From the NCBI GenBank assembly GCA_903821255.1, contig CAIJKT010000312.1:1-11113 (forward strand): 11,113 bases of DNA, written 5' to 3'. The position numbers and the translations under genes were made by a program. The stretch's first letter is position 1. Every line of letters begins with the position of its first letter. Shown here in pieces: positions 3,385 to 11,113 of this stretch. The stretch comes from an uncultured Lentisphaeria bacterium. Lineage in GTDB: Bacteria > Verrucomicrobiota > Lentisphaeria > Victivallales > Victivallaceae. The notes under the pieces were generated by a model, which saw only the letters and a program-made list of their open reading frames with translations, had not been told where the DNA came from and ran no database searches.

Positions 3385-4449
3385 TCATTTTTTTGTCTTT
3401 CCGCCGGTTCCCGTGCTGAATACCGACTTCTGAATTCTGACTTCCGGCTTCCGGGTTGCGGGCAAATCCCGCCGGGTCATCCATTTTGCGGCTTCCGGCA
3501 GATGCTTTACCGCGCTGAAAGGTTCATCCCAGTAAGCATATCTGTCCGGACTGCCATAGAGCATATTTTTCGAAAATGCAGCCAGAAGCATTTCCGGGTC
3601 CCGTCCGAAAACCGGGATACTGCCGGGAGGAGCAAGCTTCCTCAATTTATCGCTCAGCGCCTGATTGGCAGGCCTGAAATCCTGGAATTCAGAAGGCTGC
3701 AGCATTAATTTCCGCCGGAAGAACGCGTTCTTCAGTTCATCCGGCCAATCGTCCGGCGGCATAAAGGAATTGATGTCACAGCCCTTATAGATTCTTCTGC
3801 CGGGCAGATCCACGACCCAGTGCTGCTGTTCCCGGGATACCTCCGTCAAAATATACGCCGGAGCGCCTTGAGCATCCGTCAGCAAAGCGATTTTAGCGTC
3901 AAAACCGGCCTGTTCCGCCAGGCCGCAGAAAAGTCTGGCGCGGGCATAAATATCCGGGCAGCCGTTCTCCAGCAGACCGGAAAGCCGGCCGGAGGCGGCG
4001 GGGGCGGCTTTCACCGCCAGAACAAAGCGCAGGATTTCCTCAACCGGAAAAGCTGTTTTCGCAATCGCCGCCGCGGCATGTTTCAGAATCAGGGCATCGC
4101 GCCACCTGAAATAATCAATCGTTGAAAAAGGCGGAGACCACAGCAGCGGGAGGAGGCCCTCCTGTCTGCCGAATTTCAGCGCATTCGCGGCAGGCATCGG
4201 CGGCAGTTCGTCAGGAACAATCAGCAATGATGCGGCATAAAGGGCTTTCCGCCGGTCGTCCTTCTCCACCGCCTGAAGCCATTCGGCGGCCAGTTTCTGT
4301 TCATCCCGGCAGCGGGATTCATTGATTTGCGCCAATGTGACCGCCGGTATTTTTTCGCGCAGAAGGGCAGTCAATACAATGCCGGTCAGCATTGCAGCGG
4401 CAAGCATAAAAATTATCCCGGCCCCAATCCGCCTGTCATAAGATGCCAT
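3385..4449 (-). CDS. Membrane-anchored transglutaminase-like protein
   Basis: The 354-residue protein has one N-terminal hydrophobic segment (about residues 9-30) preceded by Arg6-Arg7. It is therefore an inner-membrane anchor or uncleaved signal with the bulk of the protein outside the cytoplasm. The middle resembles a transglutaminase or papain-like fold. Gly163-Cys164 lies in a loop before a helix (DIYARARLFCGLAEQAGFDA), matching the place of the nucleophilic Cys, and a later strand has His210-Trp-Val-Val-Asp214, matching the His and Asp positions. Such proteins cleave or cross-link peptides, or are inactive scaffolds. The Cys context lacks the usual Gly-x-Cys pattern, so activity is uncertain. 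The C-terminal 110 residues are not recognised and end in a Lys-rich tail. It follows the CobS-like gene by 32 bp and is probably co-transcribed. The ribosome site is weak (AGAGAA). Confidence 0.6.
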   Translation of the reverse strand: MASYDRRIGAGIIFMLAAAMLTGIVLTALLREKIPAVTLAQINESRCRDEQKLAAEWLQAVEKDDRRKALYAASLLIVPDELPPMPAANALKFGRQEGLLPLLWSPPFSTIDYFRWRDALILKHAAAAIAKTAFPVEEILRFVLAVKAAPAASGRLSGLLENGCPDIYARARLFCGLAEQAGFDAKIALLTDAQGAPAYILTEVSREQQHWVVDLPGRRIYKGCDINSFMPPDDWPDELKNAFFRRKLMLQPSEFQDFRPANQALSDKLRKLAPPGSIPVFGRDPEMLLAAFSKNMLYGSPDRYAYWDEPFSAVKHLPEAAKWMTRRDLPATRKPEVRIQKSVFSTGTGGKTKK

Positions 4450-4481: not shown

Positions 4482-5276
4482 TTATGTCCGGCTGAGAAAC
4501 AAAACCCCGAGCAGCAGTGCAAAAAGTTCAAACAGATATCCGGCGAGACTGATAATGTCAATGGTCACGCCATTGAGTTTGATTTCGCAAAACCGGCGGA
4601 CGACATTGGCAAAGACGAAAGCCACGGCAAAGGCAATCAGTGAAACATAGGGAGATTTAAACAGAATGAACAGAACGAAAAAACCGGCCACTCCCCAGAT
4701 GTAAAGCCGGTTCTCCTGATTGATTTCAATCACCGGCAATCCGGTGTTCAGCGCCGGAGCGGCGGCCAGATGCCCCTGAATGGTAAATGACAGCACCAGC
4801 ACCACGATCATCCAGTAGTAATAGCCGCAATAGAACATCAGGTAAAAGGTGAAAAGCTTGAGCAGCACCGCCAGCACCAGCACCAGGCTGCTCAGCGGCC
4901 CGGCGGCGTTGCGGACATCATTATCAAGGTTGACCATCGCATAGCCCAATGGTTTTTTGTCAAGTATTTGCTCAAACAGGGAAACGAGCGCGCCAAGACT
5001 GCGGAAAGAGTCTTTCAATTCCGTCAGCAGCGTAAGCGAAATGGCAAAAATGACGGCACCGGAAATCTTCATGGAAAGCATTGAAAGAATTCCGCCGAAG
5101 AAGAAAATAATCAGTCCGGCCACCACGCCGACAACAGGAAAACACATCTGGGTCAGCGGCGAGAATACCTCGTCTTCAAAGTCTTTTCCCGCATTTTTAA
5201 TTGATGCCGGAACCGGAAGATCAATCAGCATTTCCCATGCGGCCGCAAAAGACGCCATTATAACTTTATGAATCAT
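4482..5276 (-). CDS. CobS-like integral membrane protein with degenerate catalytic motifs
   Basis: The 264-residue product is polytopic, with hydrophobic segments near 46-64, 70-86, 129-148, 153-168, 192-206, 209-226 and 241-262. Its layout follows CobS, the membrane enzyme joining adenosylcobinamide-GDP to alpha-ribazole. Matching parts are LPVPA at 20-24, FPVVGVVAGL at 46-55, a D-x-x-x-x-G-rich segment at 118-128 followed by a hydrophobic helix, and LNGVTIDI at 234-241 where CobS has GG-x-TGD. The signature HLDGLADTxDG is replaced by LKDSFRSLGAL (87-97): only the first Asp survives. TGD has become TID, and the DSRxGTxG loop has become DNDVRNAAG. Cobalamin synthesis is therefore unlikely, and no cob genes are nearby. 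It starts 21 bp after the OlsA-like gene with a good AGGAG site, suggesting a role linked to aminolipids. The homology is by eye; the alternative is an unrelated membrane protein. Confidence 0.55.
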   Translation of the reverse strand: MIHKVIMASFAAAWEMLIDLPVPASIKNAGKDFEDEVFSPLTQMCFPVVGVVAGLIIFFFGGILSMLSMKISGAVIFAISLTLLTELKDSFRSLGALVSLFEQILDKKPLGYAMVNLDNDVRNAAGPLSSLVLVLAVLLKLFTFYLMFYCGYYYWMIVVLVLSFTIQGHLAAAPALNTGLPVIEINQENRLYIWGVAGFFVLFILFKSPYVSLIAFAVAFVFANVVRRFCEIKLNGVTIDIISLAGYLFELFALLLGVLFLSRT

Positions 5277-5297: not shown

Positions 5298-6089
5298 TTA
5301 AAAGGCCAGCGCGGCATCCCGTACTTCCGCTTTCGCCTGCTGACGGTTTTTGATATTCCAATATTCCTTTTCCATCAAAGTATGAACATACTCGGCAAGT
5401 TCCTTGCGGGATCTGCCTTCCGCCTTGACTTGCGGAAGAATATGCACCTCGACATTGATGGACTTATATCCTAAAATCCGCCAGAGGTGCGGCATCAATG
5501 TCATGTCGCCAAACCACGCGGTCGTCTGCCCGGCTTCGGCCGGCCGGTAATAAGTTATTACCGGCAGTATCGGATAATCACTCTGAGCAATGGCTTCAAA
5601 AGGAGTGGACTTGAACGCCTTGATGCCGTTTTCGCCGTCCGTACTGGTTCCTTCCGGATAAACCAGGATCGGAATCCCGTGTTTCATTGTATCCAGAATT
5701 TGAGAGAGCGCGTCTGAAGATTTCTGCTTTGAACCGCGGTCTATCCAGAGCGGACGGCTTATGCCGAGATACCATCCGAGAATCGGCCAGTTCCTGATGT
5801 CCATTTTCGGCGTGAATCTTATCGGAAAAATCGACCCGTGCACCAGAATGTCCAGATATCCCATATGATTTGAGACTATCATTCCGCCTTTAAACGAACC
5901 GGGATCGCCGACAATGGCAACCTTTATACTCAAAATCCTGACAAAACCGCGGCCCCACATGCGGGAGCAATATGTAACCCGCCGGATCGCGCCCCAGCCG
6001 CCGATATGCACAAAAAATGAGAAAAAACCAGTAACCGGCAACCATAAACAAATCGCCAGAAGTTTAACAATACGTCGCAGCATCATCAT
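5298..6089 (-). CDS. olsA: Lyso-aminolipid O-acyltransferase (OlsA/PlsC family)
   Basis: The 263-residue protein has the glycerolphosphate acyltransferase motifs in order. There is an N-terminal membrane segment (about 8-27). SNHMGYLD at 73-80 carries the catalytic H-x4-D pair (His75, Asp80). WIDRGS lies at 115-120, and YPEGTSTDG at 144-152 is followed by a Lys/Phe-containing acceptor region near 156-165. WFGDMTLMPHLW at 192-203 is typical of the OlsA-like branch. It would transfer an acyl group from acyl-ACP or acyl-CoA at the inner face of the cytoplasmic membrane. A general lysophosphatidic acid acyltransferase (PlsC) has the same motifs. The OlsB-like gene 27 bp upstream points to O-acylation of the lyso-aminolipid. 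Three ATGs are in tandem; the first sits six bases after AGG. The length is normal for the family. Confidence 0.8.
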   Translation of the reverse strand: MMMLRRIVKLLAICLWLPVTGFFSFFVHIGGWGAIRRVTYCSRMWGRGFVRILSIKVAIVGDPGSFKGGMIVSNHMGYLDILVHGSIFPIRFTPKMDIRNWPILGWYLGISRPLWIDRGSKQKSSDALSQILDTMKHGIPILVYPEGTSTDGENGIKAFKSTPFEAIAQSDYPILPVITYYRPAEAGQTTAWFGDMTLMPHLWRILGYKSINVEVHILPQVKAEGRSRKELAEYVHTLMEKEYWNIKNRQQAKAEVRDAALAF

Positions 6090-6116: not shown

Positions 6117-6980
6117 CTATGAACAAAAATGCTTGAAATATTTTTCCGGAAGACTGGCATGGTCCAGCAATACCAGGAAGTCGATGGAACTGAAGTCTTT
6201 ATCCAGCGCCGGAGCCCCGCAGATTCCCACCCCGAGCCGCAGATAGCCCTTGAACAATGGCGGAATCAGATGCAGCAGAGTGCGCCGGCTATCCAGCAAC
6301 TCCTGCATTTTCCCCGCATCCGGCGGCGGCAGAACAAAATTATCCGTCGGGGTCGCCTGTAAAATCGCAGATAAATTATTGCGCTCCTTAAAATGTTCAT
6401 ACAGCGCCCAGCCGACCGCTGGTTCCGTTGTTTCCAGACTGACACAGCCGAGCAGATATCGCATTTTTGACCGTTTAAGCACTTCGGCGATTCCGGCCCA
6501 CAACAGCGCGACCACTGCGCCGCTGCGGTATTCCGGCGAGACGCATGAACGTCCGACTTCGATGGTATTCTCGGAGATTTTATCGAGACCCTCAATATGG
6601 TATTCCCTGGCGGAGTAGAAGCCGATACCGGAACTGGCCGCCATGCCCGGATGCATCCGGTAGGTGCCGACAATCAATCCGCTTTTCTTTTCAACAACAA
6701 TCAGATGCAGGCAATATTCATCGAACTCGTCCCGGTCAAGCTGATCCTGCTGTGCAGACGCGAGATTTTTCCCCTGTTCAAGGCTGAAGACTTCAAAACG
6801 AAGGCGCTGGGCCATTTCAATTTCTTTGTCGGAATCAGCCATTTTGATCAGGAATTGATCCTTCTCGGCCAGCACCGGTGGTGTACATATCTGTTTTATT
6901 AATTCCTGTAAAGTCATATGCCCCGCTAAAATTTCACTTATCTCTGTTAGGTAATATGTAAAATAATGGCTCTGTACCAA
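6117..6980 (-). CDS. olsB: OlsB-type N-acyltransferase (aminolipid synthesis, GNAT fold)
   Basis: This is the first enzyme of ornithine-type lipid synthesis. It transfers a 3-hydroxyacyl chain from ACP to the alpha-amino group of an amino acid. Family features appear in order: QRLRFEVFSLEQG at 58-70, LDRDEFDEYCLHLIVVE at 81-97, VGTYRMH at 104-110, GFYSAREYHIEGL at 120-132, IEVGRSCVSPEYR at 140-152, LGCVSL at 177-182, and PPLFKGYLRLGVGICGAPALD at 240-260 before a DF-x-x-x-DF segment. The amino acid cannot be read from sequence: ornithine is the classic substrate, glycine in Bacteroides-type relatives. The longest frame starts with TTG at 6980 but has a poor ribosome site. ATG at 6917 (Met22, 266 residues) is an equally good start and would suit the promoter at about 7005. 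The OlsA-like partner follows 27 bp downstream. Confidence 0.82.
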   Translation of the reverse strand: MVQSHYFTYYLTEISEILAGHMTLQELIKQICTPPVLAEKDQFLIKMADSDKEIEMAQRLRFEVFSLEQGKNLASAQQDQLDRDEFDEYCLHLIVVEKKSGLIVGTYRMHPGMAASSGIGFYSAREYHIEGLDKISENTIEVGRSCVSPEYRSGAVVALLWAGIAEVLKRSKMRYLLGCVSLETTEPAVGWALYEHFKERNNLSAILQATPTDNFVLPPPDAGKMQELLDSRRTLLHLIPPLFKGYLRLGVGICGAPALDKDFSSIDFLVLLDHASLPEKYFKHFCS

Positions 6981-7219: not shown

Positions 7220-7924
7220 TCATCTCTTCGCTTCAGGAATAAACTCCAGATAATCCAGCTCCGCAACGGTATGCGATTTAGTGTATTGGCTGTTGCCGCA
7301 AACGCTTAAGGCAAATTCTTTTGGAATTACCCCGTACGCTTTTTTCAGGTCTTCCGCCACATTGCGCTCTTCAGTATACCATTTGTCGGTGCCGTCATTC
7401 TTGTTGCGGAGACAGTACCATTTGACATTGACCAGCCCGGCGGCATAATTAACCTGCCCGGTTTCCCCGGCCGGAGTTTCCGCCTCGTAGCGGTAGGAGA
7501 CACTCTTTTTGCGCACCCAGTCGTTGAAGCCGATATAAATCGCCACCGCCTGGTCATCCTTGTCCGGGCGGCGTCCGTCTCCGCCCGGAGGGAGGTTTTT
7601 AACCCGCCATCTCCAGCGCAAAATCGGGGTTTTATTCAGGTCCACGGTTTTGGACGGATTACAAACCAGTCCGCCGCTGGCCTTGTCTGCTTCAACAACA
7701 AGTTTATTGGATTTCAGATCATTGTCTTTAACGACATAGAACGAAGTGGGAGTCACGCCCGGCTTGATTGCGTCCAGTTTCCATTGTACAGGCGAATACA
7801 GTTCATCCTTTTTCTCCGTGTTGCTGAAGTCTTCACGCCAGAATGCGACATTGTCAGCCATGGACAGATATAGACAGGCGGAGAAAAAAATTGTGCCTGA
7901 AAGTATTATTTTAAGTCTGCTCAT
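7220..7924 (-). CDS. DUF3047-family exported protein
   Basis: The 234-residue protein has an N-terminal signal peptide (about 1-23, a hydrophobic core after Lys5) and should be periplasmic or envelope-located. The body matches the DUF3047 pattern: WREDFS near 29-34, ILRWRWRVKNLP at 101-112, KDDQAVAIYIGF at 122-133, a central Tyr/Glu-rich strand SYRYEAE (143-149), and ERNVAEDLKKAYGVIP at 186-201. The C-terminal end, AELDYLEFIP, is typical of a beta-sandwich. The family is found in Gram-negative bacteria and has no established function; the fold suggests carbohydrate or ligand binding (inference). The start ATG overlaps the stop of the lytic transglycosylase gene as ATGA, so the two are translationally coupled and probably act in the same compartment. 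Confidence 0.72.
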   Translation of the reverse strand: MSRLKIILSGTIFFSACLYLSMADNVAFWREDFSNTEKKDELYSPVQWKLDAIKPGVTPTSFYVVKDNDLKSNKLVVEADKASGGLVCNPSKTVDLNKTPILRWRWRVKNLPPGGDGRRPDKDDQAVAIYIGFNDWVRKKSVSYRYEAETPAGETGQVNYAAGLVNVKWYCLRNKNDGTDKWYTEERNVAEDLKKAYGVIPKEFALSVCGNSQYTKSHTVAELDYLEFIPEAKR

Positions 7925-8505
7925 GGCTGCATTATGCCTCGTTTACAGTATTCCCGGTATTTTTTCATTATGACTTCCACATAATTCTTCGTACTCTTAA
8001 TTTTTATCCGGTCCATGACTTCCCCGTCATAAGAATCCGGCTTCCAGCTTTGCGCCCGCTTATCTCCGGCATTATAGTGACACAGCGCCAGCTCAGTGCC
8101 GCATTTAAAATCACGCCACCGGGCCATCGCCTTAGCCAGATACCAGGTGCCGATTTCAATGTTCAGTTGCGGCGAATACAACATTCCGGCAGTCGGCGAC
8201 TCCACGCCCTGTTCCTTCGCCCAGTCCTGCACGGAAAACTTCTGCATTATCTGCATCAGCCCGATTTCCCCGGCCCTGCCGCAGGCGGAAGGGTCGAACC
8301 GGCTTTCCCGATATATCACCGCTTTTACCAGACGGCTGTCAATACCGTATTTTCTGGCCGACTGAACGATTAAGTGATCATATTTGGTGTCGTCCAGAAA
8401 TAAATCTCTGATAACATCGCGATAATACAGCGCCAGCAATACTCCCGCGACCGCAAGCATAAAAAAGCAAAGACTGCCAAGTTTTGTTTTTATGCTTTTT
8501 TTCAA
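7921..8505 (-). CDS. Membrane-anchored lytic transglycosylase (SLT domain)
   Basis: The enzyme cleaves the MurNAc-GlcNAc bond of peptidoglycan, forming 1,6-anhydro ends. The 194-residue product has a basic N-terminus and one membrane segment (about 10-28), placing the domain in the periplasm. The SLT domain runs from about 43 to 185. The catalytic Glu67 lies in YRESRFDP, followed by GEIGLMQIM at 79-87, the substrate-groove NIEIGTWYLA at 115-124, and HYNAG at 143-147 (usually AYNAG). The start is TTG, supported by AGGAG five bases upstream and by the Lys-rich signal that follows. The closest relatives are small Slt/MltC-like proteins, for which this length is normal. It overlaps the DUF3047-like gene by four bases and probably belongs to one transcription unit with the exported proteins upstream. 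Confidence 0.9.
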   Translation of the reverse strand: MKKSIKTKLGSLCFFMLAVAGVLLALYYRDVIRDLFLDDTKYDHLIVQSARKYGIDSRLVKAVIYRESRFDPSACGRAGEIGLMQIMQKFSVQDWAKEQGVESPTAGMLYSPQLNIEIGTWYLAKAMARWRDFKCGTELALCHYNAGDKRAQSWKPDSYDGEVMDRIKIKSTKNYVEVIMKKYREYCKRGIMQP

Positions 8506-11039: not shown

Positions 11040-11113
11040 AGATCGGAGAGCGTCGTGTAGGGAAAGAGTGTCTTCGCCTGTGTAGATCTCGGTGGTCGCC
11101 GTATCATTAAAAA
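11040..11113. other. Illumina TruSeq dual-index adapter left in the assembly
   Basis: This is synthetic sequence, not genome. From 11040 it reads AGATCGGAGAGCGTCGTG and GGAAAGAGTGT, then eight bases CTTCGCCT (11072-11079), then GTGTAGATCTCGGTGG through GTATCATT at 11108. That is the reverse complement of the TruSeq universal (P5) adapter with one A missing from the AGATCGGAAGAGC start. The eight-base block is the reverse complement of AGGCGAAG, which I recall as the D505 i5 index. Five A residues follow, as usual when a read runs off an adapter. The true genomic end is 11039. Confidence 0.97.

Follow-up and report, generated by a model that had tools for sequence, protein, structure and literature searches.

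The open reading frame (ORF) at 4482–5276 on the minus strand of contig CAIJKT010000312.1, an 11,113-nucleotide stretch of DNA from an uncultured Lentisphaeria bacterium that was analyzed whole (the window), encodes a distant relative of the cobamide synthase CobS. The protein and its relatives, a family labeled CobSL here, have lost the catalytic site of CobS but appear to have kept the membrane fold. Judged by sequence, CobSL is a paralogue family of CobS and forms a clade apart from it. We tentatively read CobSL as a non-catalytic membrane partner of the acyltransferase OlsA, derived from a decatalyzed CobS, and give this reading a probability of roughly 45%.

CobSL is a distant relative of CobS

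Taken alone, the window protein resembles CobS only faintly. Against PF02654 it gave E = 1.5e-4 and 22.5 bits, just under the cut-off of 23.2; against NCBIfam, NF001278 gave E = 2e-6 and 27.7 of 252 bits, and another model 12.4 of 110 bits. Hence neither the Pfam nor the NCBIfam cut-offs for CobS (family models PF02654 and TIGR00317) were reached. Single sequences of 14/37 CobSL members matched PF02654 at E 0.01, and three other families were matched by one member each. PF07264 (CysZ/EI24) was matched at E 4.5e-6 by one of the 37 proteins of alignment A4, which holds all but five (L041, L042, L045, L063 and L064) of 42 CobSL. Two relatives, G232 and G241, pass the Pfam CobS cut-off though they are CobSL.

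We then compared profiles. Alignments of 42 CobSL and of 29 canonical CobS taken from CobSL-bearing genomes (a fragment, L105, was excluded from the CobS set) matched in hhalign with a probability of 98.5 and E 2.1e-15, the latter for a one-against-one comparison, over 246 columns. The relationship, weak from the single sequence, is thus settled by the family profiles. An earlier, sequence-only reading of this DNA had claimed it and had looked to a comparison of this kind, which found it. One further relative, P0010, was left out of alignments A1 and A2; its 318 residues, on a 1155-bp contig, fuse an MFS domain (PF07690) to a CobSL C-terminus, and the contig is probably chimeric.

AlphaFold2 (AF2) models were built for CobSL (mean predicted local distance difference test score 87.8, predicted template modeling score 0.87, 20-row alignment) and for a canonical CobS (85.4 and 0.85, five-row alignment). 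The long helices come in identical order in the two models, and the motif-bearing helix 78–92 of CobS corresponds to CobSL 92–105. A sequence search for a solved CobS structure found none, so both comparisons were made by eye.

The catalytic residues of CobS are absent

In Salmonella CobS, alanine at D82, D86 or D89 of the HxDxxxDxxD motif, or at D229 of GxxGDxxG, prevents growth on cobinamide plus dimethylbenzimidazole, and H80A causes a defect at low cobinamide (excerpt of PMC8092220). These residues (D82, D86, D89, D229 and H80) align with G95, S99, E102, D240 and S93 of the window protein. In the joint alignment, HxDxxxDxxD is present in 29/29 CobS versus 0/42 CobSL. The sequence-only reading had described an HLDGLADTxDG block reduced to LKDSFRSLGAL. 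The block is indeed absent, but the register was off: LKDSFRSLGAL (residues 87–97) spans only its first part, and in the profile-aligned register H-x-D-x-x-x-D-x-x-D falls on S93/G95/S99/E102. The same reading saw TGD changed to TID, and this is right: T-I-D (238–240) aligns with TGD in GxxGDxxG. Within the window segment GVTIDIIS, D240 is retained and two further glycines of the motif are gone; across the 42 CobSL this position holds D in 12, N in 8 and E in 7, plus others.

To place these losses in a wider family, alignment A4 was used to search 387 genomes from the phylum of genome G003, 125 of which matched at E 0.001. The best locus was taken from each of the 95 best of these 125 (E up to 3.6e-15); with L004, from a further metagenome-assembled genome (MAG), and the window, this gave 97 loci. 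Divided by the HxDxxxDxxD motif, 83 are CobSL without it and 14 are canonical with it. Because the motif defined the split, its absence from the 83 is true by construction, and independent support comes from two other sources. Canonical-profile scores were 127–252 bits in the 14 motif-bearing proteins, whereas none of the 83 exceeded 29.8. In a tree of 126 proteins (83 CobSL, 43 CobS), made by a quick method and with long-branch warnings for L144 and L163, one branch divides the two sets (Shimodaira–Hasegawa-like approximate likelihood ratio test 100, length 1.33). CobSL members include P0021, from Lentisphaerota bacterium WC36G.

Across the 83 CobSL, no column of Asp, His, Cys, Asn/Gln or Ser/Thr reaches 60% (weighted); the 43 CobS have five Asp columns and one His column at 96–100%. 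What CobSL does conserve is W14 (73 of 83), W155 (68), K/R92 (71), K/R140 (74), E250 (76), E/D86 (64) and D/E19 (57). K140 and E250 look structural, since they are also common in CobS (28/29 and 27/29).

These residues bear on a rival view, in which a new active site (R92, E86, K140 and E250, and D19 perhaps) has arisen in the CobS fold, which now acts on the aminolipid or one of its precursors, on the head group for instance. The conservation at 92, 86 and 19 speaks for it, as do the neighborhood of lipid acyltransferases and the strong purifying selection described below. It is hard to square with the empty Asp, His, Cys, Asn/Gln and Ser/Thr columns, with the structural look of K140 and E250, and with a sequence that diverges faster than OlsA and OlsB (median identity 0.27 versus 0.47 and 0.50 in 21 genomes). 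We consider a new enzyme of this kind unlikely. The sequence-only reading had offered two options, a repurposed CobS acting on a lipid or nucleotide-linked head group, or an inactive scaffold. Of the two, the scaffold would be the better fit, given that conservation stays under 60% in every Asp, His and Cys column.

CobSL is intact and under selection

Three MAGs, each recorded as an uncultured Lentisphaeria bacterium, carry CobSL copies 88–92% identical to that of the window. Among four close relatives, the ratio of nonsynonymous to synonymous substitution rates (dN/dS) was 0.07–0.12 for CobSL (six pairs), 0.06–0.10 for OlsB and 0.12–0.19 for OlsA; the next gene downstream of CobSL gave 0.18–0.26 (three pairs). 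The three MAG copies and the low CobSL ratio led us to reject a sequencing error or a pseudogene. Over longer distances, in the 21 genomes with the complete set of four genes, CobSL had the lowest median pairwise identity, and canonical CobS had 0.40. Low dN/dS together with lowest identity indicates that CobSL is maintained yet loosely constrained in the long term.

CobSL is linked to OlsA

In the window, all on the minus strand, an OlsB-like gene is followed after 27 bp by an OlsA-like gene and after a further 21 bp by CobSL (Table 1). The sequence-only reading had placed CobSL in this neighborhood. The expected Pfam domains are present in both acyltransferases, but their scores stay under the NCBIfam equivalog cut-offs. 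The distances given in the sequence-only reading agree with the coordinates: the OlsA-like gene is 21 bp away and the gene on the other side 32 bp. That last gene (3385–4449) it had called transglutaminase-like, a label that Pfam did not bear out: even at E up to 5 the window protein gave no match, and two relatives gave just CEPT76_peptidase (E 0.16 and 0.29). Such a neighbor was seen only in the window, L041 and L043, and we rejected it as a member of the unit.

Table 1. Positions of CobSL, its key residues and the linked acyltransferase genes in the window
Feature	Position	Strand	Description
CobSL	4482..5276	−	264 aa; CobS-derived membrane protein, CobS active site gone
CobSL residues 93–102	4971..5000	−	Placed on CobS HxDxxxDxxD by profile and joint alignments, with S, G, S, E for H, D, D, D
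CobSL R92	5001..5003	−	Family-specific; K or R in 71/83 CobSL
CobSL residues 236–242, GVTIDII	4551..4571	−	Aligned with CobS GxxGDxxG; acidic place D, N, E or other across CobSL
OlsA-like acyltransferase	5298..6089	−	PF01553 63.7 bits; NF052553 112 of 300 bits; immediately 5' of CobSL
OlsB-like N-acyltransferase	6117..6980	−	PF13444 108 bits; NF052555 150 of 320 bits; start codon uncertain

The arrangement recurs. An OlsA-like gene lies immediately upstream, on the same strand and within 200 bp, at 62/83 CobSL loci versus 0/14 canonical loci, and OlsB then OlsA precede CobSL at 42/83. At 41 of these 62 loci the OlsA and CobSL frames overlap, most often with offsets of −3 (nine loci) and −7 (six); frames were taken at the longest start, and large overlaps are start artefacts. 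Both the Asp losses and the olsB/olsA neighborhood, whose recurrence in homologues the sequence-only reading had proposed to check, are therefore recurrent. Homologues beside cobU/cobT with the catalytic block restored, which it had set against its own view, did not occur.

Co-occurrence points the same way. With OlsB called at 1e-40 in the 387 genomes, 54 had CobSL and OlsB, 27 CobSL alone, 24 OlsB alone and 282 neither (Fisher p 5e-27, uncorrected for kinship); with no more than six candidates per genome scored, some OlsB may have been missed. An OlsA-like neighbor is retained in 17 of the 27 CobSL-only genomes, which makes OlsA the tighter partner of CobSL. Five of the acyltransferases were scored, three of them from OlsB-less genomes, and OlsA models were best for all, below cut-offs. 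The OlsA-like gene is not the sole acyltransferase of its superfamily, with two to six PF01553 matches per genome in 20/20 genomes.

Several neighbors deserve mention in their own right. Genes for a DUF3047 protein and a lytic transglycosylase (SLT) (window 7220–8505, minus strand) recur 5' of olsB in L004, L042, L043, L046, L053, L055, L065, L070, L072, L073, L121 and L122; in L121 and L122 they accompany olsB where CobSL is absent. Among unlinked CobSL, L058 and L068 have DprA/RibBA-like neighbors and L139 a cytidylate-kinase-like one (by eye), and L076, L078 and L128 an IspE-like one (by PF00288/PF08544 in L076, by eye in the others). An open frame of 643 residues, with a weak OlsB-profile match and the size of the bifunctional OlsF, occurs in ten genomes of 2.7–3.3 Mb (G025, G028, G031, G034, G037, G067, G086, G115, G223 and G251). 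The ornithine lipid genes of Akkermansia muciniphila have not been identified, according to an excerpt of PMC12710885, and the 643-residue frames are only a lead. At the contig end (window 11040–11111, minus strand), an open frame starts FNDTATTEIYTGEDTLSLHDALRS and resembles a translated sequencing-adapter artefact.

CobSL is probably not a cobalamin gene

Public sources label CobSL relatives as cobalamin synthase or adenosylcobinamide-GDP ribazoletransferase. Pfam and NCBIfam scans of the ten window ORFs found no cobalamin gene, as the sequence-only reading had said of the surroundings. Of 41 CobSL genomes, 29 also encode a canonical CobS apart from CobSL, scoring at least 112 bits; the other 12 lack any PF02654 match at E 0.001. 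In L009, the canonical CobS comes after a gene matching PF02277 (E 3e-120), the CobT family.

We therefore rejected a genuine CobS as the identity of CobSL, given the separate CobS in 29/41 genomes, the absent catalytic residues and the lack of any Asp, His or Cys column at 60%. A working or recently broken CobS, misplaced or misread, would account for the public names, and we give it next to no chance: besides that separate copy, the residues essential in Salmonella (PMC8092220, in excerpt) are missing, and intact copies occur in independent assemblies with dN/dS of 0.07–0.12. The database name cobalamin synthase is probably wrong for CobSL. An annotation that treats CobSL as CobS would ascribe a B12 step to genomes that may lack it, such as the 12 with no PF02654 match.

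A possible role beside OlsA

The reading of CobSL as a non-catalytic partner suits the data best, because the fold seems to be kept, the known catalytic residues are gone, few new conserved polar places have appeared and the coupling to OlsA is tight. Embedded in the membrane and without CobS-type catalysis, CobSL would partner OlsA, and also OlsB in genomes that have it. It would anchor the acyltransferase, or position it, at the cytoplasmic face, the place where aminolipid synthesis finishes. Anchoring of this sort would reuse a role proposed for CobS in B12 assembly: in an excerpt of PMC8749415, CobS is put forward as anchoring a multienzyme complex, CobC needs CobS to associate with liposomes, and an excess of inactive CobS (D82A) gave the same rise in permeability.

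Several observations weigh against this partnership. The conserved charged places K/R92, K/R140, E250, E/D86 and D/E19 leave room for other chemistry. No adjacent OlsA is found at 21/83 CobSL loci; three of these have <200 bp of contig remaining, and 11 of the 21 genomes carry both an OlsA-type gene (E 2.5e-80 or better) and OlsB at other places. Neither OlsA nor OlsB was detected in 10 genomes of the 83 CobSL, which leaves room for a wider membrane role. Seventeen OlsA-linked genomes have no OlsB at 1e-40, and aminolipid synthesis is at best putative there. Finally, five of five olsBA loci chosen for having no known linked CobSL (L121–L125) hold none in the stretch, so OlsA can do without CobSL.

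Two further alternatives draw on the same data. CobSL could shift the finished aminolipid between leaflets or to the outer membrane, which would suit a polytopic membrane fold that has no enzyme site and sits at the end of a lipid gene pair; unlinked copies in L146, L152 and L164 adjoin envelope genes, a lipoprotein and heptosyltransferase-like pair (by eye). We hold such a lipid mover to be rather unlikely. CobSL could also be a membrane protein of a general kind, with a link to OlsA that has no function. The ten genomes just mentioned fit this, as do the varied other neighbors, but the gene order is kept in 62/83 loci though CobSL pairs drop to 18% identity, and we find the idea quite improbable.

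CobSL may thus be an unrecognized part of the aminolipid pathway. It is conceivable, at somewhat less than even odds, that a stripped CobS fold serves as a third, membrane-integral aminolipid component (an anchor, lipid chute or translocator for OlsA) that is hidden as cobalamin synthase in many genomes of one phylum. If true, a conserved integral membrane partner would be a new component, directly testable by lipid analysis with versus without it. Titles and abstract openings of open-licence PubMed Central (PMC) papers on CobS/membrane/paralog, ornithine lipid and olsA held no description of such a gene. The excerpt of PMC8749415 describes the reason for the membrane location of cobamide synthases as unclear. 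CobSL appears to keep the fold without the chemistry, so that fold and catalysis of cobamide synthases could be studied separately.

Comparison with known systems

In excerpts of open-licence PMC papers on the OlsB–OlsA pathway of ornithine lipid synthesis, we found no membrane-integral third component. The window resembles that pathway in its adjoining olsB–olsA pair, as in an excerpt of PMC11631085. It differs in that a third, membrane-integral gene comes next, and in that its OlsA-like and OlsB-like proteins score below the equivalog cut-offs. With CobS, CobSL shares homology along nearly its whole length, the order of long helices in the AF2 models, and P21, P47, G50, K140, G236 and E250. 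Unlike CobS, it has neither HxDxxxDxxD nor GxxGDxxG, belongs to a separate clade, and adjoins OlsA rather than cobalamin genes, with the canonical CobS encoded elsewhere in 29/41 genomes.
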